Assembly (NCBI GenBank): GCA_024305745.1
Contig: JAHRBS010000004.1
Coordinates: forward strand, 3,658,001 to 3,722,000
Direction of reading: 5' to 3'
Length of the DNA stretch: 64,000 nucleotides
From: Polyporus tsugae
Taxonomy: Eukaryota; Basidiomycota; Agaricomycetes; Polyporales; Polyporaceae
The position numbers and the translations under genes are program-made. Shown here one piece after another: positions 7,768 to 37,376 of the stretch; the stretch's first letter is position 1, and every line of letters starts with the position of its first letter. The notes beneath the pieces are model-generated. The model was not told the DNA's origin and did no database searches. It was given only the letters and a program-made list of their open reading frames with translations.

Positions 7768-7835
7768 CACGACGGGCACGGGCCAGAAAACAGTGAAGGA
7801 AAAACTGTGTTATTTTCCCGGATAGCCCTACCTTT
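7768..7835 (+). repeat. Left terminal inverted repeat of the giant transposon
   Basis: 68 bp beginning CACGACGGGCACGGGCC. It matches the reverse complement of 37309-37376 with one difference (position 25, A against G) and then diverges abruptly. Confidence 0.9.
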
Positions 7836-7901
7836 TCGGTAGATTTTCCTGTCAGCTTTTTTCGTAGGATCTTTAAACTTCCTCTTGCAATCTCCGAAAC
7901 C

Positions 7902-8280
7902 ATCGCCATTGGGGGAAGTCAATCTTAGGCTGTACACATCCACAATTGGATAAACGTCCGACAAAGGTCATGTTCGCCATGAGGATACCCGACGACGAAA
8001 GGGGCGGTGAAGGTAAACATTGCCGCCCTTTCCACCATTGGCTGAAGGAAACCTTTCCCAGCAATTTGCCTGTCAGGGATATTTGTTCCAATGTCATTGT
8101 TTTCGCTGGATGTCAAACGAGTGGCCAAGACTTCCTATCCTGATATGGCATCGTGGCGGCGAAGGCTGGGGAAACTCTTCCTTTCCCTTCCCTTTCCTCC
8201 CGCTGGCTCTCTTTGCCAAAGGTAAACATCTCTCTGCCTTCTCCTGCGCGCGATATCTCCTGGTCAAAGGTTTCCTTTCC
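7902..8280 (+). repeat. Subterminal repeat A, left copy (379 bp)
   Basis: Reads as identical by eye to 36853-37231, in the same orientation. It begins atcgccattggggg, ends aggtttcctttcc, and has no coding features. It starts 66 bp inside the left inverted repeat. Confidence 0.9.
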
Positions 8281-8583
8281 ATGGATGAGAAAAGAAACCT
8301 TTCACACCGGTTCAGTAACCAGAGGATCGTTGGGGAGATGGAGTGCAATCCAACGCATCACGGCGCACTTCATTGCGGTAAGTCGTTCCCCGGTGCGCTA
8401 GATCGCATGTCCGCGCACTTCATTGCATTGATTGGTCTGTTGTCGCCCACATTTTCTCCTGGCACTCAACCCGTCAATGCGCCAGACTGCCCCCGGTCAA
8501 TAGCCTTAGTCACAATCAAGACTACTCTCAACTCCTGCTGTAGTCCTTCCCATTCGCATGGATGGCGCGCCTTCGGAATCAAT

Positions 8584-9030
8584 GGGTGCGCCAAGAATGC
8601 AATGTCGGAGCCACTGCGGCGCAACGAGATTGCCCTAGGGCGCACGTCGGTGAGGAGGGAGGCGTCGCGCCGGAGTGCACGCGAAGCGCGTACGTTGCGC
8701 GCCCCATACTAGTCCTCGGGGCGCGCAATGTGTGTGTGCAGCGGTATGGCGGCGTGTCGGGAAGGCATCCTTTGGACCATAAACCGTGCACCAACGACGC
8801 GACATTGGGTGCGTCAGAATGCAACCTGGAGCGTGGGCAGTGCCCCTGCGGCGCGACGAGGAGGCCCAGGGCGCGCGTCGGTGATGAGGGACGTCGCGCC
8901 CGAGTGCACGCGCGGCGCATACGTTGTGTACCCATACTAGTCCTTGGGGCGTGGTGACCGTACGTGCAGCGCCATAGCTCGTCGGGGCGGCGCCCTTTGG
9001 ATCAAATACGTGCACGAAGGGCGGCATTTG
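8584..9030 (+). repeat. Two diverged tandem units of about 223 bp
   Basis: A unit starting gggtgcg at 8584 recurs at 8807 with the same succession of motifs (agtgcacgcg, catactagtcct, gcagcg, tttggac/atc). The units have diverged by many substitutions. The second copy is part of repeat block B. The open frames they contain are a by-product of GC-rich repeat sequence. Confidence 0.7.
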
Positions 9031-9391
9031 CGCGCGGGCGCGGCACCGTCAAACTCATCGCTCTGAAACGCACGGGATGTACCACTTATTGCAATTGTTG
9101 CGTATGTCTTGCAGTTGCAGTTGAGGAGTGGATAGTGGTTCTCGAAAACCCTTATACGGATTAAAGGCGCGTCGCAGGAGCCTTTCATTCTTTGCGCGTG
9201 CAAGTCAGTTGCAACGAGAACGCCTCAGAGGACAAATGGCGCAGCTAGGGTAAGCCGCGCGCATCAACGGCGCGACTTGGAGCATTCACGCATGCCAGGA
9301 CCGCGCTCAAATGCTCCCAGTGCGCGATCAACGCGTAATGTGAGTGCCTAATAGTGCATCGCGCGCATCCCCGGGTACAAGCCGGCGCATC
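8622..9391 (+). repeat. Subterminal repeat B, left copy (770 bp)
   Basis: Very close match, without length change, to 35841-36610 in the same orientation. It is GC-rich with many GCGC and CGCG runs. Homology stops at ggcgcatc on the right. On the left it fades into the tandem unit starting at 8584. Confidence 0.88.
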
Positions 9392-10023
9392 AAGTGTGCG
9401 TTCGAGACAGGTCCATGGAGAACATGCATCATGCACTCCATAGACCGGTAAATGCGCATCCACCTCGGCGCAACCGACCTGCGCCCACGTCGCGCGCGCA
9501 ATTGCACAAGGGGAAGGAAAAGTGGAATGGACATCCACCTCAGTGCAACTCCTTCCGTGCAGAAAGCGCGGTCACGTAGCGACAGAGAGCACCGGTTCTA
9601 TGGCTGCGTCTTTCCATCATCGATCACATCATGCTCATTGTGGGCCTGCCTGGGCAGTCCCCGTGGAAGGACGCGGTGCCAACGATATGTAGTCCACCAA
9701 TGGTGGACTTCGGATCCTTGGGACCTCGCCGTTCCACCTTAATGGTCAGGATAACTCGCAGCCAAAGCGTAGGTACGCGTGGGGAGGGGGCAGTTGGAGG
9801 ACGAAACGGAGCGTACTTACATCTAGTGCATATTGAGCCCTCGGAACACGTGCTCGACGCATCTCGTTGATAAAAAATACATGATGCTTTGCAATGGAAA
9901 CCTCACATAGAAGATCTAGAAAGAATACATGACATAGTTTTGCACTCACAACTACTCTGATACCTTCAACGACGCAACAAGACAACGACGCACTTCTGGA
10001 AGCATCATCCACCCTTCCGCCCC
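9392..10023. other. Non-coding interior of the transposon
   Basis: No gene recognised. A short imperfect inverted pair (ggtccatgga ... tccatagacc) occurs near 9409-9446. The right part presumably contains the 3' UTR of the gene ending at 10024. Confidence 0.3.
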
Positions 10024-10826
10024 TCAGGCCTCATTCGGCGAGACAACGGGAGAGCCCTCGTTGCCCAAAGCTGTACCGGTGCTATCGTCACCCTGATCAT
10101 CGCCCTGATCGCCGAGCTGCGAGCCGTCTGCATCAGCGCCATCTTCGTCGAAGTCCTCCAGGTTATCGAAGTACTCGTCGCCCAGGTACTGGCGGCAGTA
10201 GGCAGCGAAGTTCGAGGGGTTGCTGAAGGCGATGTCTTCGATACGGTCCTGCAGGAGGCGTATCTTCGACTGGACGTCCCAGAGGATCTCCCAGAACACC
10301 CTATTGAAGTCCGCGAATAGAAGCCGGTTGGAGAAGCGGAGATACAGCCAGGCGGGGCCGCGTAGGAACCTGCTCGTCCCCGACGACCAGCGCACTTCGA
10401 GCCACTCCTATGATCGTCACTGTAGTCAGATTGAAGCAAAGCAAAGAAGAGCGGATGGGGGGTAAGGGTAACTCACGATGTCGGACATGACCTGATAGTT
10501 ATGCGTGATGGTCATCGCTGCGATGGAACAGCTGCACGGCTGTGCCGTGATGATGATTGCGACTATGTCCGCCAGGGACAATAAGTATGTGCGACCAGGT
10601 AGCAGACGGGGATCACCGAACTTACATTCTCCAGGAACTAGCTCAGCCAACATCACGCCACCAGGCTTGAACTCCACGTTGGGGTGCTGATCATTGGTGC
10701 CGGCGAACTCGACGCCATGGACAGCCGCAAAACGAACAATCGGGCTAGGGAAGAGTAAGCGTCAGAGTACGACGTGTAATTCCATTGAGCGACTCACTAG
10801 GTCTGAGTAGCGTCGTTAACGTTCAT
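10024..10826 (-). CDS. Small acidic-tailed protein encoded beside the transposase
   Basis: Exons 10826-10798, 10744-10477 and 10407-10024 join in phase to 226 residues. The protein starts MNVNDATQTYPIVRFAAVHGVEF and continues through a proline/glycine-rich middle and a hydrophobic segment (YLLSLADIVAIIITAQP). It ends in a helical part (FWEILWDVQSKIRLLQDRI) and an Asp-rich tail (EDFDEDGADADG, GDQGDDQGDD). I recognise no domain. Its position just downstream of the transposase, on the same strand and with its own promoter, makes an accessory role comparable to the second proteins of plant CACTA elements possible; that is only inference. Confidence 0.65.
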
Positions 10827-10966
10827 GATGGGATACGAGAGAGAGGAGTGATTGTTGACAGAAGAGCGATATGCAGGGGAGGAGCGACTCGGATGACGAT
10901 GACGGAGGACAAAGAAGAACTGTACGAGGCAGAGGAGCGAGGGCGAGGAAAATGGAGAGGGGCAAT

Positions 10967-10974
10967 ACTTATAG
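10967..10974 (-). promoter_or_regulatory. TATA-like box upstream of the small transposon gene
   Basis: Reads TATAAGTA on the minus strand, about 140 nt before the ATG at 10826, followed by a CT-rich leader. It separates this gene from the transposase that ends at 11095. Confidence 0.5.
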
Positions 10975-11094
10975 ATAACGAACAAAGGGTGTTGGAAATG
11001 GGCATGCTGGGCGGGGCCGGGCAGACGCAACGTGGTTGTGCCACTCGTCCTCGAGTCGCCAAGGGCGCTTGACGCGGTGTGATGTTCGCGCCCT

Positions 11095-14000
11095 CTAAGT
11101 CTAGAATCGTGACAGATGAAGTGAGTAAACTGTCAAGCAGGCGTGCAGTATGAATTAGCAGAGTAAACGCAACTTACGCGATCGAGATTCCGAACCACAA
11201 TACATTCGCGGCCGAGCGCGTTCGGAGTATACGCGAAGGCGGCAAAGTGGGAAACAATATCTTCCAGGCCGATGACCTGCTGTTCGCTTTGAAATGCGTT
11301 GTAGTAGAGGCTCGTGTGGATGTCAGGCCACCTGCGGTATGGATCATGGATCTCGTCGTCTCCCGACAGGGGTTCATAGACATCGACGAGGATGAACGGC
11401 TCCACCACGAGTTCCCCACGGAAGGTCCGCGTGTGAAGAAAAATCCGGGAAATTTGCCCTGCGCGACTATCGCCGCCCTGACCTTTGAAGATGACGAAGG
11501 AGTCGCGGACTCCCTTGCTGCGAGTGGAGAAAGAGACCTTGCCTTGATTCGTGCGGCTAACCTCTTGCGCAGTGGGAGAGAGTACGAGGCGATCGGTCTG
11601 GCCGAAGGAAGTGGTGTATTCGGAAGCGAAGATTTCGACGCCGGATTCATTCACAAGGCGTAGGATTGCGTCGTAAACGGCCTTCGGGAGTTCGACCTCG
11701 CGGATCTTGGAGATCGCCCGACCACCGTTGTGATGTGGCCCGGATAGAGAAGACACCGGGTTGAATGCGTCGGCGCCCCGCGAGGCCACCGAAAACGCAC
11801 GGCCAAAGCTATTCATCATATCCGCGTACTCCGGGTCGTTAGGTAGGTCGAGGCCGGCCATCAACTGGCGGAGGTTTGCGCCAATGTAGAAGTAGCGCAT
11901 GAACGTCAAAGGCATTTCCGCTGTAACCTTCAATCAGCTCACAGGATATATATGATCGGGTTATATGGACGTACCAGGCTTGTGGTTGATGTTAACACGA
12001 TGCATGAGCCCATTGTAACGCTCGAACGGGAAAGCCCACCAGCCATGAACGGGTCCGAAGAGGACCAGACATTCGTAAAGGTGCAACGATAGATGGTGAT
12101 TGGGGACGAAATCGTGGTCAAAGATGTCCTGCAGACCGCAGAGGTAGTGGAACATGTGCTTGTCATAGGCTGCTGCGCGGTCACGAGACATGGAGCGTCG
12201 AGAAGCGATGTCGACAGCGGCGACGAGGTGCAAGAAGTTCTCCAAAAGCAGCTTGTCATGGGGTGAAGCCTCCGGGGAGTCCCAAAGGCGGATAAGGGTG
12301 ATAACCATGTTCACAGTACAGATCGTTCTCCATTGGTCTGCTTTCAGCTTTCCGTGGCTCGGACTGCCGAAGTTCGATGGTGGTCGCTCCAGCCAGGAAG
12401 GAAGATATGTGGAGCGCAGGTCTGCGCGGATACTCTGGAGGACATCGTAGGATAGGACGCGATACTTCGAGATGTCCGCGGCGGTGTCGTCTGACAAATG
12501 GAAGTCCGTCGCGTCGTAGTCGAGAACTGGCGGGAGACGAATCGCATCGACGGCGACAGTTTTAACCTAACATGGGCTTCAGTAAGAATTCGAAACTAGA
12601 GTTTAACAGCAATGTACCCAGTCTAATAACGCACTGACATACGCGGATTTCGTCAACACTGCACCGGTAGGAGTGACGTTATTGAGCTTTGCGATGGAGA
12701 CGATGTAGCCCTTCCGAAGTTTGCCAAGCGCAGTCGCTGAACGCTTCTTCAAAGCATCGAGAGTGCGTTGTAGGAACTTCGTCTGCTCCTCGGGCGTATG
12801 AGGCAGAAGCTTCTTTGGGCCAGGCGCTTTATCCCGGATGTCGATGCCCCAGACGTTCATGCAATGGTGGCGCAACTCGCCTAAGAACAGATTATGCATA
12901 GAGTCGAGGACGGCAAATCTGGTGGGATCCCAATACGGCAGGCGAAGGAGCTCAGACCACCGCAGTCCATGCTCTTCGAAGATCTCATCCCGTCGCCCCC
13001 TGTTGGCGTCTCGCCACTCAGTCGCGATCTCCAGATGCTCGGCCCAGGTCCTCCGAGCGGGCCAGGTGGAGCGATCGAGATTGCGGATGTCATCTTTCAG
13101 TAGGGGGCAGAAGGAGCAGAGGTGCTTAGAAGAGTGTCCGGCAAAGCCGGCTGTCTTTCGCAGGGCAGGGAGGTCACAGACAAGCGGAATGAGGGCAGCG
13201 CGCACGAAGCGGCCCATCCATCGTAACGCAGTGCGACCAAAGTACAATCCATGGGTCCACAGTACCAGTAATTCGTCGATGAGGGGCCGGAGGAAATGAT
13301 TGAGCTCCTCAAGCGCTGGTTCTCGAGGTCCGGGGATTATGCCCACGACGTAAATATACTCGGGAGCGTATCGCATGTCGATCGGGAGGTTCAGGCAAGC
13401 CATATAGATAGCGCCAATGGAGTGGGATTTGCCTGCCTTCTTGTTCCCGTAGGGATTGAACCAATCGACAAAGAGACTGAAGACGAGATTGAGGGAGCCA
13501 TGCTGCTGGACGGAAAACAAGGTTGTGTTATCAGGACCGCGGAACTGGCGTATGGCTGGAGAGTTCATGATATCGCGCCATGCGCCGGATGGGTCGTTGT
13601 GCTGCCAACTAGTCGCTAATGCCGCTTCGACCTCTGGACGGGATAGAAAGACCTTCAGCCACGACCTCAGAGTCCTGTATGGAAACACACGAAACGGCTT
13701 GAACACCGTTCGCTTCGGGCCGTTCTTCTGCTTCGGTGCTTGCGTCTCCTCGAAGACCAGCTTGGCACCACAGAGCTCCTCGTCGGCAGTAGAATTGGTG
13801 CAGTAGTGGGGGTAAGGGTCGTCGCATTCCGTGGGATCGTGACTTGGAGCATAGAGAGCGCAACAGCGAGGGCAACAGGCGTACCGGACGATGTCTGGTT
13901 CCAGACGGAGGGTGCGTAGTACAGTCCTGATGTCGCGCGGAATACATTTCAGGAGAAGGCGCTGCGCTGCGCTCACGGATCGCGATGGCGCATTGCACCA

Positions 14001-15384
14001 CACGAACGCTCCGAAAAGCACTGCCCTCAGGCCAGACAAGACAAACGCAACCTCTGGGCGAGCTACCGCGGCCATTCCATGGAGAACAACTGTGATGATG
14101 AGGGCGACTGTGACAAAGGGCTCCATCACGTTCCTGGCCACGAACATGTCATCTGCAGTAGACAGGGTGAGCGATGCACACCACATAAGACATCGCACGT
14201 TGGAGCATCACCTGTCGTTACAATGACCGGGCCATCTTCGAGCCCGTCGAGGTTCACATGCGGAAGTTTCATCACCTCGTTCCTCCACGCGGTGAGCTGC
14301 GCTCGCACAGCTCGCTCCGTATAGGTCTCAATATCCTGGACGAGCCGTTCGTGCAGTCGGTCGACGCTACGGTCACCAATGGGGAGCAGATGCGACGCTT
14401 GAGCATGAAGATTTGGCAATGTTACGGTGCGGTACTCCACGAACTCCGCAGTGGGAGGATCGGAAGCGTCCAGATCAGACGGTGGATCGTTGTAGCTGTG
14501 AGGGGTGTCGGTGAATTTGAGAATTGGGTGCTTGAAGCGTGCCTCGGCACGATGGAGTATAGATTGTATATCTCCGATTTCTCGCAAGCGTTGCTGTGGC
14601 CGAGGCGGTAAGCTAAGAGCACAGACAAAGCGGACCTCCATGGAATACGCTCACCTCCAGACTGACGGTGTCGTCCACAAGTATCTCGTCGAACTCAAGC
14701 GCAGGAGGGTCATCAGACTCGACGTGCGTCTCCGGTGCTCCTTGGACGGCGGGCTGCGTCTGCACAGGACGTTAAGATTGCAACCTGACGCGCGAAGTTT
14801 CCGAAGAGAAATGACTTACGTTAGTCGCAAGCCTATCTGCTTCCACGTCATAGCGACGCATCGGACGCTCATCATGCTCGACGACCAGCTCGGTGGTTGC
14901 TTGAACAGTATCCTGCTTCTTCATATGGCGCGTTAGATCGCAACTGGACGCGAACTTTTGACAGGCGAATGACTTACGCTGGTCTCCGCACTGACTCCCT
15001 GCACGTCGCTAGCACGCGTTCGACGTCCATCGGGCTCAATGTGCGACTCTGAAGCTGCGTCGTGCTGCTTCGTATGGTGCATTAGATTGCGCTTTGAAAG
15101 AGATATCTTCGAAGGGAATGACTCACGTTGGTTGCGACGCTGTCTACCTGAACGTCGCGGCGATGCACAGCTATGGAATCCTGCGATCGGACGGCCAACC
15201 GGTCGGACATTGTGGCCAAAAGAACGTCCGTTCCGGGCGAGCGCGAAGCGTATTTCGGCTTCGCCGTGTGGCTGCTGACGGTCTTCGGATCCAGGAGTCG
15301 TCCAGGTCGATGTTCGCCATGTTCGTCCAAGTAGGTCCATTTCTTACAGTCCTCACAGGTACACGGCTTCTTTTTCAAAGCCAT
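11095..15384 (-). CDS. Tnp2-type (CACTA/EnSpm) transposase
   Basis: Very probably the transposase of the element. It starts MALKKKPCTCEDCKKW at 15384, with a Cys-x-Cys-x2-Cys cluster and a GEHRPGRLL segment, as in many basidiomycete Tnp2 proteins. Four short, similar exons follow (see 14650-15330), then an exon from about 14597 and a long exon to about 12640. The long exon carries CCPRCCALY, CGAKLVFEE, DWFNPYGNKKAGKSHS, GIIPGPREP, PLVCDLPALRKTAGFAGHSSKHLCSFC and RFAVLDSMHNLFLG, the core of the family with its conserved Asp residues. Downstream exons (12573 to about 11980; 11925-11178; 11100-11095) contain HLLSLHLYE-like helices, GWWAFPFERYNGLMH and EMPLTFMRYFY, ending NLDRT. Frames agree across every junction checked and no stop interrupts it, so it may be active. 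Length is roughly 1,300 residues. Confidence 0.85.
14650..15330 (-). repeat. Serially duplicated exon-intron units inside the transposase gene
   Basis: On the minus strand, four successive exons of similar length each end in a related sequence (SVATN, SAETS, RLATN, TVSLE). Each is followed by a similar intron: gtRagtcatt at the start, a ctaaYgc branch-point-like motif, and a gaagcag-type acceptor. Period is about 150-190 nt. Each unit encodes an acidic and charged stretch (for example ATTELVVEHDERPMR). The phase is preserved, so units can be added or lost without breaking the frame. Confidence 0.75.
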
Positions 15385-15584
15385 GAGACGCAGCAGGAGA
15401 GAGGGGAAGGAGGAGAAGGGGAAAGAAAAAAAGGTGGGGAACGAATTAATTATAAGGGCCGTCCAACGATGAAAGTAGATAACAGAACGCGAACAGGTTA
15501 TCAATTGATCTCAGTAACGAGGGAGACACATTCATATTGACTAATGGGGAATAAAACGATGGTAGCATTTACAGCGCCGAGTGC

Positions 15585-16809
15585 TCACGCGCGAGCCAAT
15601 TGCCATACGGGGCGATCTTCGATGGATGACCGAGTGCAATACCCAAAGATCAGAAGGAAGAGAATGAACCAGACTAAGCCCCAGATAAGGCCAGTGGGAA
15701 GCGTGATAATTCCGGCGCAGCGAGTGGATGCCCACTGACAGCCATGGATCACGGTCTTCAACACGTGAGTCTGGTTGATGCGTAAAGTTAGCAACGCCTC
15801 ATTTCCGAGCAGCGACTGAACGACGCACCATTCGGCCAAAGATGCGACTTGCTATCTGTGCACCTGATGTCAGTAACTCCAATACACGCCGGCCGTAGTC
15901 GTCTCGCAGTGTGTCTCGAAGCTCTTGAAAGGCTGCTGGCAGGACGGAGCGGCGAGCATCATTCGCTTTCAGCTCTTCTAGCTCGGCTTCGAGACCGCGC
16001 AAGGCATCGAGGATCGTCGTGTTTCGCTCGTTCATGGAGGCGAGGTCGACGTTCAGTTGACAGATGTCTTCGCTGAGTGTGTTTTGAACAGCGATCGCAA
16101 GTCGTTCCTCACTCCGCATCGCCTCGCGCTCCTTCCGAACGTGCTCTGAAGAAAGTCAGGGACATGTCGGTGACTTCCGTAGAGCAGTGAGCTTACCACG
16201 AGCGCGATACAGCAGCCTATTCGCCCTATACTGCACGCTCCCCACGTCCCCCCGGACATTGACCATCGTGCTCTCCAGGTTCAACAACCGTTCACTGGTC
16301 TCCTCCTGTAGAATAGAAGGCACGTTACACTGCGGGTTCAGGGCGATCGTTCGGGGGGTGAGGACGTACCTGCAGCTGAGCAAGCTGCTTGGTAGCTTCG
16401 AGCGTTTGGCTAATGAGCGTAGCGACGGCCACCATATCTTCGGTCCCTTGCGTCAAATCCTCCCGACCGGGAGCAGCGTCTTCCCCTTGCGCAATCCTAG
16501 AAAACATTGGCGACCGACAAGAGGGAGCGGGTTGAACAAAACTCACTGATTCCCTGACACTCTTGAGACCAGCTCATGAGACAGACTTAGAAGCGTCGAC
16601 ACGGTGCGAGCGACCTCTGTGGAGGAGGCAAGGGCTTTGACCGCCGGTTCTATGGTTAAGTCACCACCGTCGACAGAGGAAGGGGGCGAGCGGAGAGGAG
16701 AGGCGGGTTGGGAAGACGAGTCGGTGGGGGAGTGATGAAAGGCGATCGAGGAGATACTGGAAGATAGAGAGGATTCGCCACTTGGAGATCCAACGAACGT
16801 CGGGGACAT
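15585..16809 (-). CDS. Coiled-coil protein with C-terminal membrane segment
   Basis: Starts MSPTFVGSPSGESSLSSS at 16809. A Ser/Pro-rich head is followed by helices rich in Leu, Glu and Ala: VAVATLISQTLEATKQLAQLQ, EETSERLLNLESTMVNV and LDALRGLEAELEELKAND. These look like a long coiled coil. After a final intron comes GIITLPTGLIWGLVWFILFLLIFGY, a strong transmembrane segment close to the C-terminus. Introns between these parts join in phase (for example after 16549, 16371 and 16197). I know no family for it. It is cargo of the large transposon and shares the 'coil plus tail anchor' design with other cargo proteins; a topology with the coil in the cytoplasm is inferred. Confidence 0.6.
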
Positions 16810-17453
16810 GTCGCTGTGTGCGTTGAGGGGCGTAAATTGGTGGTCAGGTTGAGATTCGGTTGGGAGGTGAGCAGCTCGAGGTCATTCGAAGCGGGCCCCA
16901 TAACTATGCTCCCAGAGATAAAGCGTGATCGGCTTAAAGAGCCAGCCATAGAAGGACGCAGCATCGAGGAGGTAAAGATATAAAGAAGGCGCATGAATGT
17001 ACGCGGGCGAAAGTCGGCAAGCAAATGCGCGTTGCAGTGCTTTCAACGTAGCGATGGTTTGCGCATGTTTGCCAAAGGCATTGCACCGGCTCCCGGCCCA
17101 AAAACATCGCCTTGCCGTAGGCGCTACAGTACCAGAAGAAGCGCAAGCGACCACGGATAACGAAACATTAAGCTCCTCTGAGTCCTCTCATTCGTTCAAT
17201 TGCACAGACAAATATCGGTGTAACTACAGCATATAACTACATCAATAAACGGAGTCTGGCTAACTGGTACACCGGCATAATACTATACTAAACTGCGTCC
17301 AGTTGAACGCATTCACCGCAACGTCGTGGGCATCGGATGCTCAATCTGGTCTCGACGTCGTGAGCATCAGAGGCTCGATCTAGTCCCAACGTTGAGAATA
17401 CGTGAGCCGATACGAAAGGTGCAGGAAAAGGACGACCAACCTCACCTTGGATC
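16810..17453. other. Intergenic space in the transposon
   Basis: No convincing gene. The part next to 16810 should contain the promoter of the coiled-coil gene; minus-strand open frames at 16882-17154 show no family features. Confidence 0.3.
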
Positions 17454-18691
17454 TCAGAAATCTACGTCATCCAGGTCGTCGCCGACGATGGGCTCACCCA
17501 GACGTCGCCAATCTTCACCATCTTTGAACCACTTGCTGAGGGCCTGTTCGTTGCCCCTGGCCCCGTACCAGATGCGGACATGGTACAAGCTGGGGTGTGC
17601 CTTTGCGCTGGCAGGAGGACAGCGCAAGGCCCGCGTTCGCACACCATAGACCCATCCTAAAACGAGTGAACGCTCAAGATCGTAGTTTCCGGGCTGCCGA
17701 ACCAACCCAGCAGAGGTTTGGAGCGAAAGCTCTTCGAGAAAACGGAGCTTACGCAAGGCGCGAGCCCATGTGAGAGCGTCGTTGAATGGACGACGTCCAG
17801 ACTGAACGCGTCTCTGTCATATGAATGGGATCAGGTACTGCGACAGAGAGGAGCAGGACGACGGAACTTACCACGGAGGCCCCGCGCTGCTCGAGGAGCT
17901 TGAGTTTCCGCAGGAACAGCGCAAACAGGCTGAGGTTGTCCAGAACGTCGACGTCATCCGGGAAGAAGTCGATGGTAAGGCTATATAAGCCAGAAGCGCA
18001 CATGGGAGACGTGCGGAAAACGACCCCGATACGAGGGCCCCCTGTCGACTTGCCGATCGTAAGACGGAAAAGGTCGCTATGCGCAAGTGATCGCACGCAT
18101 TCGGCGTCGCATTCGAGGTCTGTGACGTGGGCAAGGTCGACTTCGAGAAGCGGGCACCGTCTCGTAGGGCCACAGGGCCCCAAAACAAGAACAGACACTG
18201 ACTGGTGGCGCGCCAGGAACGCGGCAAGAACAGCGTGGGGTAGGTTGGACTTGAAAAATTGGAGACCGCCGAAATTGACGTCGAGAAGAAGGTCGGGTGG
18301 CGTTGTAACGGGTAGAAGGAGGGTGAGGTCCGTGAGGTGGGGAACGAGTTGTAAGGATGTGTAGATGGGCAGGATATGAGCGTCTTGAAAAACAGGCAAG
18401 CCCGAGAGACGGATGATGAGGTCTTGAATCCTGGTGCCAGACCGGATTTTGACGCTCATGTCGTCAACGAAACGCTGGGCATTCTCGATGGACGAGATCG
18501 TGAACACGCCCTGTCGGACCGAGTTAAAGTCTGAGTGCGTCGATTGGTCTGATAATAACTCACATGAGAGGAGGCTACCACCACCTGCTGAAGGACCACT
18601 GAGAACGCATACGGTACAACACGAGAGGAAAACGACTTACACGGACTGATGGGTGGCGAGCGACAAGACTGATGTCGGCGTTGCGAGACAT
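17454..18691 (-). CDS. F-box/LRR-like protein (degenerate F-box)
   Basis: Starts MSRNADISLVARHPSVR at 18691; two short introns lead to the body, and a third intron lies near 17820-17875. The body contains repeated hydrophobic strand-like stretches (IQDLIIRLSGL, HLTDLTLLLP, VSVLVLGPCG, VTDLECDAECV, LYSLTIDFFP, LRKLKLLEQRG) spaced as in leucine-rich-repeat-like solenoids of basidiomycete F-box proteins. The C-terminus reads FLEELSLQTSAG ... YHVRIWYGARGNEQALSKWF. The N-terminal F-box normally found in the group is barely recognisable, so binding to Skp1 is uncertain. Such proteins form very large, fast-evolving families in mushrooms and usually select ubiquitination targets. Frames agree across the introns. 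Confidence 0.6.
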
Positions 18692-24608: not shown

Positions 24609-25462
24609 ATGAGTGCTTCAGACAGGTACGAACGCTGTCTGACTGGTGTGCACTCCACTCATTCGCACAGGGACCCTCAAATCATCTTTTCCACCACTCG
24701 AGTGGCTGCGGCCTCGTCGCACAACAACATGCTCCCTGCCCTTCCATCAACCGATGTTCAGTTCCGAGTCGTGCTTTCCAAACTTGCGCCGGAGTTATGT
24801 AAGGCCACAACTACTACGTTCTGCCCGCTCGTCTCTTCCTCATTCACTGCTTCTGTAGATTCGTTGTTCATCTTCAAGCTTGCCGATGGAGAACATGATG
24901 CGAACATGCCCGAACCTGAGGTCACGATCCTCATCTGCGACGCTACCTGGACTGCGCACGAAGAGGTGAGTGCGTATCACCGTTTTGTGCCGGAATTACT
25001 CATCTGAGCCCGAGCGGAAAGCAATCCGGTGTTATTACCGTATGTGGCGCCACGAGCGACGACCCCCACTTTTCCCTGCATCTTCGTTTCGACGACAGGG
25101 AGGACTTCTGGACGTTCCTGCGCCTCCTCATCACCGCCAAGGAAGCCACATACAGGCGCCACATGGAGATCAGCAGCCTTGTCAGGCGGGCTATCAGTAT
25201 GGTGCCTCAAGGCAAAGGTGAGCCAACCATCGCGAACAGGTGCACATTCTCGCTGACTGAATTGCGTACATCCGAATCGATAATGGTATCGCACCCGCAG
25301 AGTAACTTGAAGCTATCTAGATCAGCCTCTCCGGAGTCCCGCCTCCCATACTCGTCTCGCCTTGCCATCACCTATGCCATAGTAGCTTCCGCGGTCCTCA
25401 TGTTTGTAATGTTCGTAACTTTCCCATACTTGTGTAATGAAATGAGCCTGCGGGCGGCCTAG
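24609..25462 (+). CDS. PH-like-fold protein with C-terminal membrane segment, paralogue 2
   Basis: First exon MSASDR, intron to about 24670, then IIFSTTRVAAA, VQFRVVLSKLAPEL, SVDSLFIFKLADG and EVTILICDATW. After a second intron follow VITVCGATSDDPHFSLHLRFDDREDFWTFLRLLI and YRRHMEISSLVRRAISMVP. The last segment matches paralogue 1 position by position (HFSL, F-D-R, FW, LRLI, MVP). A Ser-rich linker and LAITYAIVASAVLMFVMFVTFPYL, a transmembrane helix, end the protein. I infer a cytoplasmic PH-like domain held at a membrane by a C-terminal anchor; ligand and membrane are unknown. Confidence 0.55.
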
Positions 25463-25680
25463 AAGTGGTCATACTGCTGTGCCCCATAACAAGCCTTCGG
25501 CAGCGTCTCGGGACGCTGTGGCCAAACACATGTAAACAGCTTTCGCGAGTTGTTGCGCCCAATTCTCCATCTCTCTCATGCAAATGCGGCCGCGTCCATC
25601 TACTCCTTCCCTTCTTCGTTTCTCTCTCTCTCGCTCTGCCCTCACGACCAATACTCTCCCAGGCGCGAAGCGCAACCCCA

Positions 25681-26340
25681 ATGCCAGCAGCTTCCGATGT
25701 CCCAAACCCTCCTGACCGTGCGGTTCTGGAGCAAATTAACCCCACCGAGTCTCCGGGTCAGTCGCCTCTCAATGCACGCAATCTATGGTCTACGAGTCTC
25801 GCTTACAAAATACCACAGCCATCCTTCACAGTACATTTGCGTCTCAGTCGAACTTGCAGTTGCGGGTCCATGTCCCCTTGGAATGTAAGACTAGCATCGG
25901 TCTATTCGTATATCTTTTTTTCACCGTTCGCAGACATCACGGGCATGGAAGCACGGATTGCTGCCTTGCAGGCGGAACTCCAACACTTGACGGCGCAGCA
26001 TCAGTCCGAGGTAGAGCAAAAGGAAGCTGAACACCAGTCCGAGCTCCAGCAGAAGGAGGGTCTGCATCAGGTGGAGCTGGAACGCAAGGACGCAGAGTTC
26101 AAGGCCTATGCCGAGAAGAAGGATACGGAGTCTAGTGAGCTGAGAATGTCCATCAGACTTAATCGTTATGTTTGGGACTCCTTCTCCCGACAAAACAAGG
26201 AGTTTGAGTCGATGCTTTACCCGTTCCTCGACCCCGAGACTAGACGGATTCAATTTCCCCTCATCACCTTCCCGGCGTGTGTTTGTGGCGCTGGGAGTCA
26301 ATGGTGCGTCCTTCGACCTGAGGCCTCTGACGAAGTCTGA
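25681..26340 (+). CDS. Coiled-coil protein
   Basis: ATG at 25681 gives a proline-rich head (MPAASDVPNPPDRAV). One intron may be removed near 25887-25932. A charged heptad-like stretch follows: MEARIAALQAELQHLTAQ, SEVEQKEAEHQSELQQKEG, VELERKDAEFKAYAEKKD. The strictly repeated 'HQSE-QQKE' pattern indicates internal duplication of an 11-12-residue unit. The end has FESMLYPFLDPETRRIQFPLI. No known family. The exact splice model is unsure because the candidate intron does not join in phase with every acceptor. It continues the plus-strand gene series inside the transposon. Confidence 0.45.
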   Translation: MPAASDVPNPPDRAVLEQINPTESPGQSPLNARNLWSTSLAYKIPQPSFTVHLRLSRTCSCGSMSPWNVRLASVYSYIFFSPFADITGMEARIAALQAELQHLTAQHQSEVEQKEAEHQSELQQKEGLHQVELERKDAEFKAYAEKKDTESSELRMSIRLNRYVWDSFSRQNKEFESMLYPFLDPETRRIQFPLITFPACVCGAGSQWCVLRPEASDEV

Positions 26341-26990: not shown

Positions 26991-28578
26991 ATGAACACAG
27001 GCCCTCGTCGTACTAGGGGTAAAGCCAAAGGCGCAACCGCTGGTAGAGTGAGTGCTCCGTCTGATCCTTTGTGCACGCCACTTGCTAACTAGCTTGCGTG
27101 TAGGGTGCCGCACAGACTGCGTCGTCGGCCTCCGATAGTGGACAAGCCTCCGCGTCCAGCAGTGCCGTCTCATCCGCCATTTTGAGTTCGGCTAACGTCG
27201 TCGAGGAACAGAAGTTCGTCCCTCCCCCCGACCTACCCGTCCATCCTCCCCACGTACCCGTCCCCGCCCCGGCTCCCCCTCCCGTCCCGGGCCCGCTTGC
27301 TCCGGTCCCAGCCCCTGCTCCCGCCGTCGGCCCGGTTCTTGCTGCAGACGTCAATGCGGAGATTGCTCATGGTAGCCGCTTCACCGGGCTTGTTGCCATC
27401 TTTGTAACACTTGTGCGATCGGTCATGGACGCTGTGAGGGTCGTCATCGTTCTTCTCAAGGTCCCTTTCACCCTGTTCCTCTTCGTGTACCTGTCCTTGC
27501 TTCTCCTCGGCCGCGTCGTCGACACCGCGTCGGAGAGACTCGCCCCCATCTGCAATATCTTCCCCAACATCCACGTTTGCCGAGTCACAGCTGCCACCGA
27601 CAACTTGTCTGCTACACTCGGTAACGTTGGACACAAGCCAGCCAGCCACGTTTACCACGTCGACTTTCCCGGCCTCATGGATTTGCAGAGTCGCACACTT
27701 GACCAGCTCTTGGCCCAGTCTACCTCTGGATCTCAGCTCGCACTCAGCGTCAAACAAGCCGAGCTTGCAGTCAAGGACCTTGGTATCGTTGTGAAGGCCA
27801 GCAATCTCACGAGTAAGGACATCCTCGCCCGAGCCCTGGAGGAGTTCTCCCAGGAGGCAAAGTTGGTCGGGCGGGACTTGCAACGACTCTCAGCGAAGCT
27901 CTATGGAACGGTGGATACGTACGTCGTCTCACATGTTATCATTTCTCTCGGAGCCTGACACATGTTGGCAGCGTGCTAGCTTTTGACGATTATGCTCTCC
28001 GGTCGATCGCGTCGGCACAGACGTCAGGTGCTGACGTGAGGGACACCGCCGTCGCGACGTTCCAATCCACGATGACGACTCTCGCCTCGGAGGTGGCACG
28101 TGTCATCTTGGATGCCACAACGGTTGCCTCCTCCCTCGACGTGTTGGAGGAGAAGCTCTCGATTATCCGCTCTCTCTGCGAGCAGGAGATGGTACTTACC
28201 AAGTCGAACTTGAGCGACGTCCTCTCAGAGCTCTGGACTGCCCTCGGTGGCAACAAGGACAAGCTCTATCACCTGACCAACCAAGTCGAGATCCTTCGTA
28301 ACGTGGACTGGTACCGCTCTCTCTCCGTCGCGCACGTTGTCGCTACCACCGAAGTCCTGTTGACACTCGAAGCCGAGCTCTCCGAGCTTCGAGACAAGCT
28401 CAGCACCCCGGAGCTCATCGGAGACGCGATTCCCATCGAGGTTCAGATTGCCAGCATCGAGCGGGGCGCGCGCCGTATCAAGGAGGAGAAGCTCAAGACT
28501 CGCGAGCTCGCCCGCCAGGCCGGAGACGGCCCGAGCGTTGCATCCACTCGTCACCAAGGTCCACTCGGTGGCGTCTAG
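26991..28578 (+). CDS. Pro-rich single-membrane-span protein with long helical C-terminus
   Basis: Three exons: 26991 to about 27047, an exon ending VDT near 27918 and a last exon to 28578, in phase. A basic, Ser/Ala-rich start is followed by a Pro/Ala/Val low-complexity stretch (VPVPAPAPPPVPGPL, about residues 70-105). A hydrophobic region VPFTLFLFVYLSLLLLG follows. Beyond it is a Cys pair (CNIFPNIHVC) and a long, mostly helical C-terminal half with heptad-like Leu/Ile spacing (for example TTEVLLTLEAELSELRDKL). No known domain. It precedes the N-anchored protein and the SUN-domain gene on the same strand, all in the same transposon. Confidence 0.6.
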
Positions 28579-28679
28579 CGTGACGCCGTTGAGTAGTCGT
28601 GGCAGCGTCGCAACAACTGCTCGACGATAGTCGTCCGAGAAGGCGGAAGGCAGGTCTGCGTGGGGAGGGTAGATAAGGC

Positions 28680-28880
28680 GTGTAGACGCGGGTGAGCGGG
28701 TCGTAGAGGCGGACGAACCGGTTGTAGAGGCGGAAGAGCGGGTCGTAGAGGCAGACGAGCGGGTGTAGAGGCGGACGAGCGGGTCGTAGAGGCGGGCGAG
28801 CGGGTCGTAGAGGCGGGCGAGCGAACGAGCGGTTCGTAGAGGCGGGTGTACGAGTTTTAGCACCTGGTCGTAGAGGGTTT
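28680..28880 (+). repeat. Minisatellite, about 21-bp unit
   Basis: Roughly eight imperfect copies of gcgggtcgtagaggcggacga. It lies just downstream of the preceding gene, in its 3' UTR or the spacer. It generates long open frames on the minus strand that are not genes. Confidence 0.8.
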
Positions 28881-30420: not shown

Positions 30421-30699
30421 TTAGACTTTCATGAAACTTCATAATTACATGCACCTTGTACTCCAGTTATGTATATCCATGAAAGCTTGGTCGGTTGCCT
30501 TCACTGGTGACTTGGTGTGGTGATTCGGAGCACTTGTTTGCGACGGAAGTGTGGCCGTCTTTGCGATGATGACATAAGCTGGCGCTCCAACTCACCCGCG
30601 CGCCACCTGGGGGAAATTTACAACCGTTGCGGTATTGCACTTGCCCTTCCCCTGCCAGCCATCCTCATCTCCTCTCGGTTTTGTAACGTGGGAGCCCAG
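30421..30699. other. Spacer before the SUN-domain gene
   Basis: 3' UTR and promoter space; nothing else seen. Confidence 0.4.
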
Positions 30700-31821: not shown

Positions 31822-32038
31822 CCATTGTTATCAAGCGTTGTATTATTTTTCAGTACCTCGTCTATCCATCCATCTTTACCTTTCTTTGTTGAGCGAGTAA
31901 GCCTTGATCACTTCATTGACATAAACGAACTTCCCCATGGTTCCTCGCGTTCTTAAGTAGCCTGTCCAGAGTTCACTCCGCTCTGCTCATCTCTTCAGTT
32001 CTCCTCTCCTCTCCTCTCTGCTGCAGCGTCGCGACGAA
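31822..32038. other. Spacer before the repeat-rich gene
   Basis: Promoter-like, CT-rich before the ATG at 32039; no gene. Confidence 0.4.
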
Positions 32039-34141
32039 ATGAGTTCACATATTAACGCTCCCGCGCCACCACCCTCCGCAGACGCCGGTCCGTCTGCCAC
32101 AGCGGATCCGAAGATGGACCCGCCACCTTCCCCGCCGGCACCGGTGCATGGCGTGAAACGGATCCTTAGCGCGAACGAATGGAATGTCAAGGGAAGTAAA
32201 TCGGCCAGGACCAAACTCAGGGTGAGCAATATTGCCTTGCGCTGCCGCTGGTAAAGTTATAACTCCGTTTTGTAGGACAACGCCGCACCTCTCAAGTTGG
32301 CGCAGAAGAGGCGTCTGTCTCGCTTCCGTACCATGCAAAATAAAGCTGCCAGAGCGAACGCTAAGCATACGACGGTCGAAGGTTGTACCGGCATCCCGGG
32401 ACAGGACCTCGAGCCCGCTACGCAAGGATCTACCACTCCTGTCGGCTCTCCTCGCGGTTTGGGCAGCACGGTGCTGGTGAGTGCAACGAGGTTACGTGCC
32501 AGTCTACGCAACGCTCACCCCGGCCAGGACACCGACGTCGAAATCAACGATGAGAACGGTGACATCGGTAGCGATATGGATGACGAGGAGGTTGATGCTA
32601 TCATTGATGAGTACGATGCTGGGGATGAAGACGAAGGGGACGAGAGGATGACAGTCGTAAGTACCTCCTGTTCCGACAGCGCGATTCATCATCTAATCAT
32701 CAATTGTGCGGGAAAACCTGGGTCTCAGTCGTCCCAGTTGCAACCCGCTGTCTCTGTCGCGCATCAGCCTGGACCGTCTCAAGTAGGAACGTATCCGTTA
32801 GATCAACATGCCTCGCACAGTTACAGTCAACATGGGAATTGTGACGCTATCCAGCACAACGCTCATGTCCAGCACTCTCAAGTTTCCCATCCGCCAGATC
32901 ATTACACATCCATATCGTACTCCCAAGCTCCACAGCCACCGGGTCTGCAGGCTGCGTCACCGTACACTCATACTCCCCAGCATCAAATTCCGTACACTCC
33001 CGCTCCGTACGCCCAGCAACTGGCTGCGGGCATTCCCGCTCAGTACGCCGAACAACACGGCGTGGGCGTTCCCGCCCAATACGCCCAGCAACTGGCCGCG
33101 GGCACTCCCGCCCAGTACACCCAACAACAGGCCGCAGGCACTCCCGCTCAGTACGCTCAACACGGCATGGGCGTTCCCACCCAGTACGCCCAACAACAGG
33201 CCACGGGCACTCCCGCTCAGTACGCTCAACATGGCGTCGGCGTTCCCGCCCAGTACGCCCAGCAACAGGGCGTGGGCGTTCCCGCTCAATACCATCCTCA
33301 GCGCCAGGCGGCATATGCTCCCATTCATCAACTCCAAGATCTACAGAGCCAAGGGCCGTACGTGCCCGCGCAGTATGCTCAAGGAGCTGCATCTCACTAT
33401 TCATTCGCTTCCGCGCCGTATCCCTCGTCGGGGAACCAGCAGGGTGCGCATGCTCCTCCACAGCCAGCGCTATCGGCGGAGAAGCAGATGGCGCCACAGA
33501 ACCCCCCGGGCCCTGCTTCTGACCACCAGCTTCGATCGCCGACCGCTCACGCCGACGACTCTCAGGCTGGAGCCATGTCGAGTCAGCAACCCATCCAGTT
33601 CGTTACCGTGGACCCGTCAAAGCCACCCACCCAGCGACGCAGGATAACTTCTACAAACAGTCTCGCGAGTTTGCCGGAAACTTCCACAGCTAGCGTCGGC
33701 CCCTTACCTGCAGCGGCTGCGTCTGGGTCACGCCGCAAAGCACCCAGTCGGGCCCCTTCGTCGAAGAACGTCAGCAAGGAGCGCGCGTATCATCCCTATG
33801 TCAATGGACAGCGCTACGAACCTCCACCCGACCCGCCAGCCTACCACCCCCCACCCCAGCAGCCAAGAGCCACAGACGACGTGCTTCCCGGCAACCGTAG
33901 TGTGGCTGGTCGCCATCCGAGTGCTTCGGCGACCCCCGGGCCTAGCCGCGACCCACGCCAAGAGATCGTCGAGAGGCTCTCGTTGTTGGACGAGGCAGAC
34001 AGGCTCCGTGTTATGGCCGCACTGTACCCTCAAAACCATGCCACAGAGGTGAGCGCGTACCATCTCGCATGCTGTGCGTGTTTTGACAGGACGTCACTGC
34101 AAGATGGACGTCGACAAAGACACTCCTCCATCCACAGGTAA
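32039..34141 (+). CDS. Pro/Gln/Tyr-rich repeat protein with acidic segment
   Basis: ATG at 32039; one intron after about 32222 joins in phase to a long exon. The start is Pro-rich (NAPAPPPSADAGPS). A basic region (LAQKRRLSRFRTMQNKAARANAK) and an acidic one (DMDDEEVDAIIDEYDAGDEDEGDE) follow. Then about twelve copies of a 10-13-residue unit, consensus G-x-P-A-Q-Y-A-Q-Q/H (32985-33330), resemble the low-complexity tails of RNA-binding or phase-separating proteins. A KAPSRAPSSKNVSK basic patch and a short helical end (QEIVERLSLLDEADRLRVMAALYP) complete it. The stop at 34141 overlaps the next gene by 38 bp. The two may be one gene whose joining splice I could not find. Confidence 0.5.
32985..33330 (+). 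repeat. In-frame tandem repeat encoding GVPAQYAQQ-type units
   Basis: About a dozen 30-39-bp units of the type ggcactcccgctcagtacgctcaacaa. They alternate between two versions (AAGTPAQYAQQ and GVGVPAQYAQH). Frame is kept throughout, implying selection on the protein. Confidence 0.85.
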
Positions 34142-35618: not shown

Positions 35619-35840
35619 ACGTGATCAAGACTCGATGATCCAGGGTCTGGGGGTGGGTGGGTTGCACCGAGACGTGAATGCCTCCTTGTGGGTATACGTA
35701 TTTTAATTGGCATCTGACGAGCTGTGCTCGTTTTGGTAATGGATTGGACTTCGGCTCAGACTCATATATACGAAGGACCATTGGCGGTGATTGGGTGCGA
35801 CGCGAATGCGACCTGGAGCGTGGGCAGTGCCCCTGCGGTG
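35619..35840. other. Spacer into the right subterminal repeats
   Basis: 3' UTR space, then from about 35790 diverged sequence of the 223-bp tandem unit leading into repeat block B. Confidence 0.5.
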
Positions 35841-36610
35841 CAACGAGGTTGCCCTAGGGCGCGCATTGGTGAGGAGGGAGGCGTCGCGCCGGAGTGCACG
35901 CGAAGCGCGTACGTTGCGCGCCCCATACTAGTCCTCGGGGCACGCAATGTGTGTGTGCAGCGGTATGGCGGTGTGTCGGGAAGGCATCCTTTGGACCATA
36001 AACCGTGCACCAACGACGCGACATTGGGTGCGTCAGAATGCAACCTGGAGCGTGGGCAGTGCCCCTGCGGCGCAACGAGGAGGCCCAGGGCGCGCGTCGG
36101 TGATGAGGGACGTCGCGCCCGAGTGCACGCGCGGCGCATACGTTGTGTACCCATACTAGTCCTTGGGGCGTGGTGACCGTACGTGCAGCGCCATAGCTCG
36201 TCGGGGCGGCGCCCTTTGGATCAAATACGTGCACGAAGGGCGGCATTTGCGCGCGGGCGCGGCACCGTCAAACTCATCGCTCTGAAACGCACGGGATGTA
36301 CCACTTATTGCAATTGTTGCGTATGTCTTGCAGTTGCAGTTGAGGAGTGGATAGTGGTTCTCGAAAACCCTTATACGGATTAAAGGCGCGTCGCAGGAGC
36401 CTTTCATTCTTTGCGCGTGCAAGTCAGTTGCAACGAGAACGCCTCAGAGGACAAATGGCGCAGCTAGGGTAAGCCGCGCGCATCAACGGCGCGACTTGGA
36501 GCATTCACGCATGCCAGGACCGCGCTCAAATGCTCCCAGTGCGCGATCAACGCGTAATGTGAGTGCCTAATAGTGCATCGCGCGCATCCCCGGGTACAAG
36601 CCGGCGCATC
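35841..36610 (+). repeat. Subterminal repeat B, right copy (770 bp)
   Basis: Same orientation and same length as 8622-9391, with few substitutions, mostly near its left end. No gene; the open frames it holds also occur in the left copy. Confidence 0.88.
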
Positions 36611-36852
36611 GAGAGAAGCCTTCCTCCTTTGTTAGCAGACTGAGTGATGTTTGCACCCAACACCATCAGCTGTAGACGCTACATAGTCACTCCATTTTGC
36701 GACGCAGAGCGTTCGAGCTCGACCACATGCAATGTAGCGCACGAGGGCGTGCCCCTACGCGTCCAATTGTGTAGGGTTGAGGGGAACCGCTCCCGTTGAC
36801 TCTGGCTTTCTGCGCCATCAACAGCACGCGAAAGGAAAACCATGCAGGACCA

Positions 36853-37231
36853 ATCGCCATTGGGGGAAGTCAATCTTAGGCTGTACACATCCACAATTGG
36901 ATAAACGTCCGACAAAGGTCATGTTCGCCATGAGGATACCCGACGACGAAAGGGGCGGTGAAGGTAAACATTGCCGCCCTTTCCACCATTGGCTGAAGGA
37001 AACCTTTCCCAGCAATTTGCCTGTCAGGGATATTTGTTCCAATGTCATTGTTTTCGCTGGATGTCAAACGAGTGGCCAAGACTTCCTATCCTGATATGGC
37101 ATCGTGGCGGCGAAGGCTGGGGAAACTCTTCCTTTCCCTTCCCTTTCCTCCCGCTGGCTCTCTTTGCCAAAGGTAAACATCTCTCTGCCTTCTCCTGCGC
37201 GCGATATCTCCTGGTCAAAGGTTTCCTTTCC
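36853..37231 (+). repeat. Subterminal repeat A, right copy (379 bp)
   Basis: Reads as identical to 7902-8280, in direct orientation. It ends 77 bp before the right inverted repeat. Between B and A here is 242 bp of unrelated sequence, as opposed to 341 bp between A and B on the left. Confidence 0.9.
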
Positions 37232-37308
37232 CGGTTTGCGAAATCCAGTGTATTGATGTGCAGAACCTAACCTATCACTTCCAGGAAATTTGTTGTTATT
37301 TAACTAGG

Positions 37309-37376
37309 AAAGGTAGGGCTATCCGGGAAAATAACACAGTTTTTCCTTCACCGTTTTCTGGCCCGTGCCCGTCGTG
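37309..37376 (-). repeat. Right terminal inverted repeat of the giant transposon
   Basis: Reverse complement of 7768-7835 with one mismatch; ends CCCGTCGTG at 37376, followed by the target duplication GAA at 37377-37379. Confidence 0.9.

Follow-up and report, generated by a model that had tools for sequence, protein, structure and literature searches.

A 29.6-kb CACTA/EnSpm-type transposon with about ten predicted genes in the genome of Polyporus tsugae

A complete DNA transposon of 29,609 bp is present at positions 7768-37376 of a 64,000-nucleotide stretch of the Polyporus tsugae genome (GenBank assembly GCA_024305745.1, contig JAHRBS010000004.1, positions 3,658,001 to 3,722,000 of the forward strand), which is referred to below as the window. 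The element is very probably one copy of a 29.6-kb CACTA/EnSpm-type transposon that was inserted as a unit at two sites, likely by the Tnp2-type transposase that it encodes. Under this reading a CACTA-type (DDE) transposon has moved about ten predicted genes in a mushroom, and its ends, its target site duplications (TSDs) and an empty site can be read directly.

The two inverted arms of the element are 68 nt long and 99% complementary, with one mismatch, and lie 29,473 nt apart. The outermost letters are CAC..GTG, and GAA flanks the element on both outer sides. The features of EnSpm/CACTA elements found here are a PF02992 transposase, 3-bp TSDs and terminal inverted repeats with CAC..GTG, the last being part of the definition of fungal EnSpm given in section 3.1.5 of PMC12730594. 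Among fungal EnSpm/CACTA elements it is unusual in size and content. Inside its ends lie long direct subterminal repeats of 379 bp and 785 bp (Table 1). When the 785-bp repeats of this element and its second copy, described below, are compared, left with left and right with right, 2 and 5 differences are found, and left-right comparisons give 10 and 11. The heptamer CCTTTCC occurs five times in the first 840 bp, where 0.22 occurrences are expected from the interior; it is the best of many k-mers tried, and no 8-mer reached four occurrences.

The genome searched comprises 43,241,137 bases in 18 contigs, cited here as C1, C5 and the like. With the first 133 bases of the element as query, five matches were obtained, namely both ends of the window copy, both ends of a copy on C5, and one diverged end on C17. 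The second full copy (C5:1082181-1111861, 29,681 bp) has the TSD TAG on both sides. Over 29,609 aligned bases the two copies differ by 138 substitutions (99.5% identity) and by two in-frame indels (3 bp and 69 bp). No similarity between their flanks was found outside the ends, and the homology stops at the inverted repeats. A chance inverted repeat was rejected as an explanation of the arms, because a second whole copy elsewhere has the same ends, with homology stopping there and a TSD of its own.

An empty site for the C5 copy was sought by joining 400 bases of each flank through a single TAG. Among the 15 genome matches, two run uninterrupted across the junction (C1:263728-264216 and C1:5260878-5261365; 489 and 488 bases, both 99% identical and with no change in length), and in the 80 bases read at each site the flanks are joined by a single TAG. 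Therefore, the C5 insertion interrupted one copy of a repeat that was already there, and the whole 29.7 kb entered as a unit. The first-pass annotation of the window, which listed the 68-bp ends with one mismatch, the CAC...GTG termini and the GAA outside both but not the subterminal repeats, had proposed that everything in between moved as one unit, and had suggested, as checks, a search for further pairs of ends at about 30-kb spacing and for an empty site. The ends and flanking letters were confirmed, the second pair was found on C5 at a spacing of 29.7 kb, and the second copy with its own TSD, together with the C5 empty sites, bears out movement as a unit; empty sites were found for the C5 copy and none for the window copy.

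These data also bear on the alternative that a gene cluster bounded by inverted repeats was multiplied by segmental or assembly duplication. Although only two full copies were found and they are 99.5% identical, their homology breaks off precisely at the inverted repeats, a separate 3-bp duplication flanks either copy, and two uninterrupted versions of the C5 target are present; these empty sites refute a duplication unless they are products of precise excision. Such a duplication is thus very improbable. Palindromes occur near both insertion sites, one of 29 nt (window 7684-7712) 55 bases to the left of the window copy and one of 40 nt (C5:1082132-1082171) 9 bases to the left of the C5 copy; the latter is part of the target repeat. 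A target preference for hairpins is possible.

Transitions account for 135 of the 138 differences between the copies. CpG versus TG/CA changes number 116 (84%), of which 66 are CpGs lost in the C5 copy and 50 are CpGs lost in the window copy, although CpG positions make up only 16% of the bases (binomial p about 2e-68 for the excess). Two other duplicated Tnp2 loci exhibit the same bias (33 of 35 and 23 of 25 changes), and CpG decay is therefore not special to the giant element. It is described in PMC4457147 that 98.7% of the 5-methylcytosine of Ganoderma sinense is at CpG, and that Ganoderma transitions resembling repeat-induced point mutation (RIP) favour CpG. After copying, CpGs were lost from both copies, as expected under CpG methylation or CpG-type RIP. 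Since only 22 positions differ outside CpG, the duplication of the element looks recent from its sequence.

The predicted transposase carries the hallmarks of its family. Its exon at 12606-14207 (minus strand) matches Transposase_21/Tnp2 (PF02992) with 52.2 bits, against a Pfam cut-off of 28.6, and the next exon gives a weak match to DUF4218 (E 1.1e-5; 25.7 bits, below the curated cut-off of 27). The predicted introns are all GT..AG and 51-65 nt long. The motifs FVDWFNP (residue 517), VCDLPA (614), CSFC (635), HHLSLH (958) and WAFPFERYNG (978) follow in order and provide the D, D, C(2)C, H(3-4)H and E of the CMCT group. The assignment of catalytic residues among them follows in part PMC12730594. 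D248, D345, C364 and C367 of the exon are conserved in five aligned relatives; the Glu motif lies outside the aligned exon and is present in the G. sinense protein GSI_08405, which matches 59% of the length of the transposase at 87% identity. The complete Tnp2-type gene of the first-pass annotation is thus upheld, its PF02992 match being significant and its reading frame in the window copy free of stops.

In the mechanism envisaged, Tnp2 would bind the 68-bp ends, cut at CAC/GTG and join the element to a target with a 3-base stagger. Cut-and-paste transposition by the encoded Tnp2 is suggested by the TSDs and by termini like those described for EnSpm in PMC12730594. The genome contains further Tnp2 genes. 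PF02992 matches number 19 including the two copies, 17 of them above the cut-off, and a search with the transposase exon gave 26 matches, of which the closest besides the two copies is C7:480645-482162 (56%). The copy number of a DNA transposon can rise by repair from the sister chromatid.

The C7 locus belongs to an element of 33,462 bp (C7:451639-485100) with the TSD TGA, CACGGCGGGCAT termini and inverted ends of about 1.1 kb that are 99.8% identical, as judged from 13 kb read at the predicted ends. These ends were located where the gene spacing predicted them, and were not found with the 68-bp end or an inner motif of the window element; its 12-bp terminus differs from that of the window element at two of 12 positions, and no similarity between the ends of the two elements was found beyond the terminus. 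The C7 Tnp2 exon is an open frame. A search with the SUN-domain protein of the window element gave six genome matches, namely the two copies, C7:457099-457698 (38%) and three others, and in C7 the Tnp2 and SUN genes have the same order and relative orientation as in the window element. As far as the searches reach, Tnp2 and SUN are what the C7 element shares with it.

The presence of such relatives raises the alternative that the element is no longer mobile by itself and was mobilised in trans by a related transposase elsewhere, for example that of C7. Other Tnp2 genes are indeed present, the C7 exon is open with a terminus deviating only slightly, and the C5-copy transposase has one stop codon. 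The window transposase, in contrast, is free of stops, with all predicted introns GT-AG and all motifs present, and beyond the terminus no similarity of the C7 ends to those of the window element was found. Mobilisation in trans is thus considered unlikely, and movement by the encoded enzyme is preferred.

Ends of the type 5'-CACGRCGGGCA with 3-bp duplications are common to other elements of the genome, including C7 and short ones. The CACGRCGGGCAY pattern occurs 81 times, compared with 31 times for its reversed control. Facing pairs less than 1 kb apart number six, against 0.044 expected at random positions, and outward pairs within 50 kb number three. Four of the six short facing pairs were read, and all four have 3-bp TSDs (CAT, GTA, TAA and TAT), so that 3-bp TSDs are present in all seven elements (three giant, four short) read at both ends with exact CACGRCGGGCAY on both sides. 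The short elements would be non-autonomous relatives.

Ten gene models were retained in the window element. They were derived with a self-trained, splice-aware predictor and kept if they scored high, had a homologue elsewhere or formed a long open frame; the initial scoring proved too weak in the middle part of the element, and a lower gene penalty produced many meaningless small calls. The estimate of about a dozen genes in the first-pass annotation was thus roughly right, if slightly high. A Pfam scan covered 20 of the frames of the window element and not every frame; four gave matches (Tnp2, SUN and, below cut-off, DUF4218 and a CCDC90-like domain) and 16 gave none. The CCDC90-like match (18.2 bits against a cut-off of 33.5) is that of the model at 25675-26283. 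The fungal F-box/LRR label of the model at 17484-18510 is our own presumption, no Pfam match having been obtained in its two frames scanned.

The closest named matches of host genome proteins are from Ganoderma, and the inner genes have counterparts there. Six of the seven counterparts in G. sinense stand in conserved order within two annotations, in pieces that are 51-90% identical. GSI_08405 is collinear, as one annotation, with the F-box-like, coiled-coil-like and Tnp2 models, and is probably a fused annotation; P0018 ('transporter') likewise spans the three models at 24.7-28.6 kb as one annotation. The SUN protein has the G. sinense counterpart GSI_14463 (72%) and a G. leucocontextum protein that is 99% identical, and the protein encoded at 27 kb (26991-28578) is 99% identical over 74% of its length to G. 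leucocontextum LXA43DRAFT_880971. GSI_08401 and GSI_08405 are on contigs of equal size (249,401), as are P0018 and GSI_14463 (2,256,307), and each pair is taken to share a contig. The G. leucocontextum SUN and 27-kb-gene proteins also come from contigs of equal size (758,071). Proteins of these two kinds are on equal-size contigs in four of the six named species that have both among their matches (G. sinense, G. leucocontextum, Trametes meyenii and T. versicolor) and are not in Lentinus tigrinus and Earliella scabrosa; on megabase contigs, such linkage across species is only suggestive.

Within the P. tsugae genome, the 27-kb protein has four further relatives (35-39%), none of them in the C7 element. 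A single joined query with the products of the models at 10.0, 15.6-16.9, 24.7-25.5 and 29.2 kb matched only the two copies. These results are relevant to the alternative that the transposon is as described but all of its inner genes apart from Tnp2 were captured from the host, as passengers of no use to the element. Capture of gene fragments is described for plant CACTA elements (PMC8978399; Tpn1 of Ipomoea nil, PMC5105172), and the five models searched besides Tnp2 and SUN have no match in C7. Against it, six models are collinear with the two fused G. sinense annotations and SUN has its own counterpart there, CpG decay has left the SUN frame open in both copies, and Tnp2 and SUN recur in the diverged C7 element in the same arrangement. 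Unselected fragments would hardly be expected to combine collinearity, an open SUN frame and recurrence in C7. Passenger status is therefore a real possibility that we consider somewhat improbable. The gene order in the G. sinense proteins and the recurrence of Tnp2 and SUN in C7 favour a conserved set, and the inner genes would appear, from sequence comparison, to be such a set more than random captures.

A Starship-like or KDZ-type giant element was also considered, in view of the comparable size, the fungal host and the presence of several genes. The window element has a DDE enzyme of the Tnp2 type and long inverted ends, and no tyrosine recombinase (the Starship captain) was found among the 20 Pfam-scanned frames, which are not every frame. 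Its TSDs are 3 bp long, as against 7-8 bp for Kyakuja/Dileera in the account of PMC12730594. This alternative is exceedingly improbable, and the element is taken to be of the CACTA/EnSpm type in what follows.

One accessory gene encodes a SUN-domain protein (PF07738, 51.2 bits against a Pfam cut-off of 22). A profile of 13 SUN relatives finds ten PDB sequences, all of SUN1, SUN2 or the mouse SUN2 construct 5ed8, with a best E of 2.5e-32 (SUN2). A structure model was built on the G. leucocontextum sequence; its mean predicted local distance difference test score is 65.9, and it is good mainly in the C-terminal half. Its first 12 Foldseek matches are SUN1/SUN2 (E 1.2e-13 to SUN1), and those below rank 12 are other proteins, many of a beta-sandwich type. 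The element protein resembles the nuclear-envelope proteins SUN1/SUN2 (PDB 3unp, 5ywz and others) in having a SUN domain by profile and model with one predicted transmembrane segment before it, and differs in being 21-25% identical in the fold match, short and transposon-borne.

Hydropathy was scored in a 19-residue window (threshold 1.6), with the G. leucocontextum protein used for SUN and the G. sinense one for the 27-kb protein. One hydrophobic segment each is found in SUN, the 27-kb protein, the 29.2-kb frame, and the tails of the models at 15.6-16.9 and 24.7-25.5 kb, and a segment above the threshold is also present in the N-terminal part of the transposase. The occurrence of membrane proteins beside a SUN protein suggests a nuclear-envelope module. 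In this scheme SUN and the predicted membrane or helical proteins would be the parts of an accessory module that acts at the envelope, where it might, for instance, anchor the element or its nucleus, or position either of them, and so help the element persist. Envelope anchoring is the role that we favour for SUN. That such a module acts there is the weakest step of the argument and is put forward tentatively, as rather unlikely on the present sequence evidence. It is still more doubtful that there is a polypore lineage of giant CACTA elements with its own nuclear-envelope complex (SUN plus membrane-anchored helical proteins) that tethers the element or nucleus and promotes transposition, inheritance or spread in the dikaryon. 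If true, this would give the basidiomycetes a counterpart of Starships that relies on a DDE enzyme, in the form of a lineage of DNA transposons equipped with a LINC-like (linker of nucleoskeleton and cytoskeleton) module. The recurring SUN gene is a concrete handle on the ways in which a transposon may deal with the nuclear envelope and with two-nucleus life.

A number of observations weigh against these readings. For the envelope module, the role assigned rests on one domain assignment and hydropathy, and two of the five accessory hydrophobic segments, those in the two tails, are absent from the G. sinense annotations, where the corresponding parts score below 1.4. Both tails lack a G. sinense match and therefore rest on guessed exons: the hydrophobic C-terminal piece at 15588-15851 is joined by a guessed splice and GSI_08405 residues 356-720 have no such segment, while the segment of the model at 24657-25459 is outside its matched part and P0018 residues 1-160 have none. 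For the conserved set, counterparts in G. sinense are known for seven of the ten models, the search outside this genome having covered all but those at 10.0, 29.2 and 32.3 kb; the five models without a C7 match are those searched out of eight besides Tnp2 and SUN, the ones at 17.5, 25.7 and 32.3 kb being left out; and no convincing gene is present at 19-24.6 kb of the window.

For the transposon itself, the stop codon in the C5-copy transposase has been mentioned. The case for movement is made from sequence. A genome search with the two flanks of the window copy joined gave no empty site, the matches being to these flanks themselves and, in part, to a repeat in the right flank; the matches from query position 600 onward represent a separate short repeat there. 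The terminal pentamer is CACGA and not the literal CACTA, and plant CACTA elements have short subterminal motifs, unlike the long direct repeats of the window element. Members of the CACTA superfamily lacking the literal pentamer have been described, such as SmTRC1, which begins with CCC (PMC1636069). Facing 12-bp ends 25-40 kb apart number three, against 0.52 expected (up to four in 2,000 trials). This spacing alone is no proof, and the three giant elements therefore rest on their long inverted ends and TSDs. Lastly, in the C17 relative (about 745 bp) one end is good, the other is degenerate, and no matching TSD is seen.

Table 1. Features of the window element (window coordinates)
Feature	Position	Strand	Basis or remark
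TSD GAA, left	7765..7767	.	sequence reading
Left terminal inverted repeat, 68 bp, begins CACGACGGGCAC	7768..7835	+	12-bp terminus also at both C5-copy ends
379-bp subterminal direct repeat, left copy	7902..8280	+	100% identical to 36853-37231
785-bp subterminal direct repeat, left copy	8610..9394	+	98.7% identical to 35829-36613
Small gene downstream of transposase; predicted jointly with it, the split being the authors' reading	10024..10744	-	in this genome only in the two copies
Transposase of Tnp2 type, 1,246 aa in 9 predicted exons, stop-free in window copy	11178..15384	-	PF02992 E 6e-14
Coiled-coil-like protein (by eye)	15588..16875	-	15826-16875 collinear with GSI_08405 residues 356-646, 59-62%
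F-box/LRR-resembling predicted protein	17484..18510	-	collinear with GSI_08405 residues 27-348, 76-82%
Predicted protein, hydrophobic segment near frame end	24657..25459	+	24657-25216 matches G. sinense P0018 residues 2-150, 51-60%
Coiled-coil-like predicted protein	25675..26283	+	P0018 residues 151-318, 57%
Membrane and long helical predicted protein, ~490 aa	26991..28578	+	80% over 100% to G. sinense GSI_08401
Open frame, N-terminal hydrophobic segment	29172..30296	+	in this genome only in the two copies
SUN-domain gene for a 336-aa protein with a single predicted transmembrane segment	30700..31821	+	PF07738 E 1.7e-13
Repeat-rich predicted protein, 585 aa	32333..34141	+	C5 copy longer by 69 bp in frame
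785-bp subterminal direct repeat, right copy	35829..36613	+	self-comparison
379-bp subterminal direct repeat, right copy	36853..37231	+	self-comparison
Right terminal inverted repeat, 68 bp	37309..37376	-	arm pairing
TSD GAA, right	37377..37379	.	sequence reading

Two repeat arrays are found inside the element. An array of units of about 21 bp lies between two of its genes (window 28680-28844), and in the repeat-rich gene (window 32976-33300) the two copies differ by one 69-bp in-frame unit, which indicates that the repeat number can change fast.

Other loci of related kinds were noted. A SUN match at C1:5549369 and a Tnp2 fragment at C1:5570242, 21 kb apart, have the same order and orientation as in the giant elements and mark a candidate third giant element; no exact CACGRCGGGCAY pair brackets them. 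A SUN match of like kind near the end of C11 (C11:2496904) may form one broken copy with a Tnp2 fragment, 99% identical, that lies close to where C14 starts (C14:4747). At C5:1169114-1171264, 57-59 kb from the C5 copy, Tnp2 fragments are followed by a right end of the window-element type in a decayed relative. The facing pair of 12-bp ends at C6:1315023-1331186 (16.2 kb apart, with no Tnp2 match between) may be due to chance or be a non-autonomous element of middle size. Two 4.3-kb stretches that are 100% identical (C11:1741026-1745297 and C14:225099-229370) contain a Tnp2-like gene, 32% identical to the window Tnp2, and may stem either from another element that was copied very recently or from a recent duplication. 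Elsewhere in the window, a 500-bp stretch (53353-53852) with 78-nt inverted arms (97%) that are 344 nt apart looks, from its sequence, like a short non-autonomous inverted-repeat element.

Several known systems are comparable. The fungal EnSpm elements described by Kojima in 2025 (PMC12730594) share with the present one the CAC..GTG termini, the 3-bp TSDs, the C(2)C and H(3-4)H motifs and an extra gene by the transposase; in that description the extra gene is, in some, a TET/JBP dioxygenase, whereas here there are about ten genes with SUN in elements of 29.6-33.5 kb. The main text of PMC12730594 contains neither 'SUN domain' nor 'Ganoderma'. The Tpn1 family of Ipomoea nil, for which sizes of 161 to 40,619 bp and capture of host genic regions are reported (PMC5105172; also cited in PMC8195511), is similar in its CACTA affiliation, 3-bp TSDs, large size and captured genic regions. 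In contrast, its gene-capturing members are described as non-autonomous, with their insides replaced by host sequence (PMC5105172), while here transposase and gene set recur together. The enlarged En/Spm families of the red alga Chondrus crispus (Kojima et al. 2013, cited in PMC6431247) belong to the same superfamily and have extra open reading frames; they are smaller, being given there as 16-20 kb with 4-5 such frames. The soybean element Tgmt* (20.5 kb) shares Tnp2, a 3-bp TSD and large size, but PMC2613891 describes one large transposase gene in it, and no accessory gene set was seen in that account.

The first-pass annotation knew of no description of this arrangement. This does not hold for large size and gene capture, for which Tpn1, reaching 40,619 bp according to PMC5105172, is a CACTA precedent. 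Among the matches listed from the open-access literature, a scope that leaves subscription papers and most preprints outside, there was no CACTA element with a SUN gene and no giant multi-gene CACTA element of a basidiomycete. Gene-content comparisons among polypores could mistake the genes of such elements for accessory genes of the host.

Among fungi, the giant elements known to move genes have mostly been Starships. The analogy of scale with them, drawn in the first-pass annotation, is apt in that a giant element with a Tnp2 moves genes, and less so in the word 'cargo', since variable passengers fit less well than a conserved set. Like the window element, Starships are giant fungal elements that move many genes as a unit (PMC12134995), and eight are reported from Tremella fuciformis (PMC13066641). 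Unlike it, they are described as having a tyrosine-recombinase captain, sizes of ~42 to 700 kb and many accessory genes (PMC12134995; PMC13066641).

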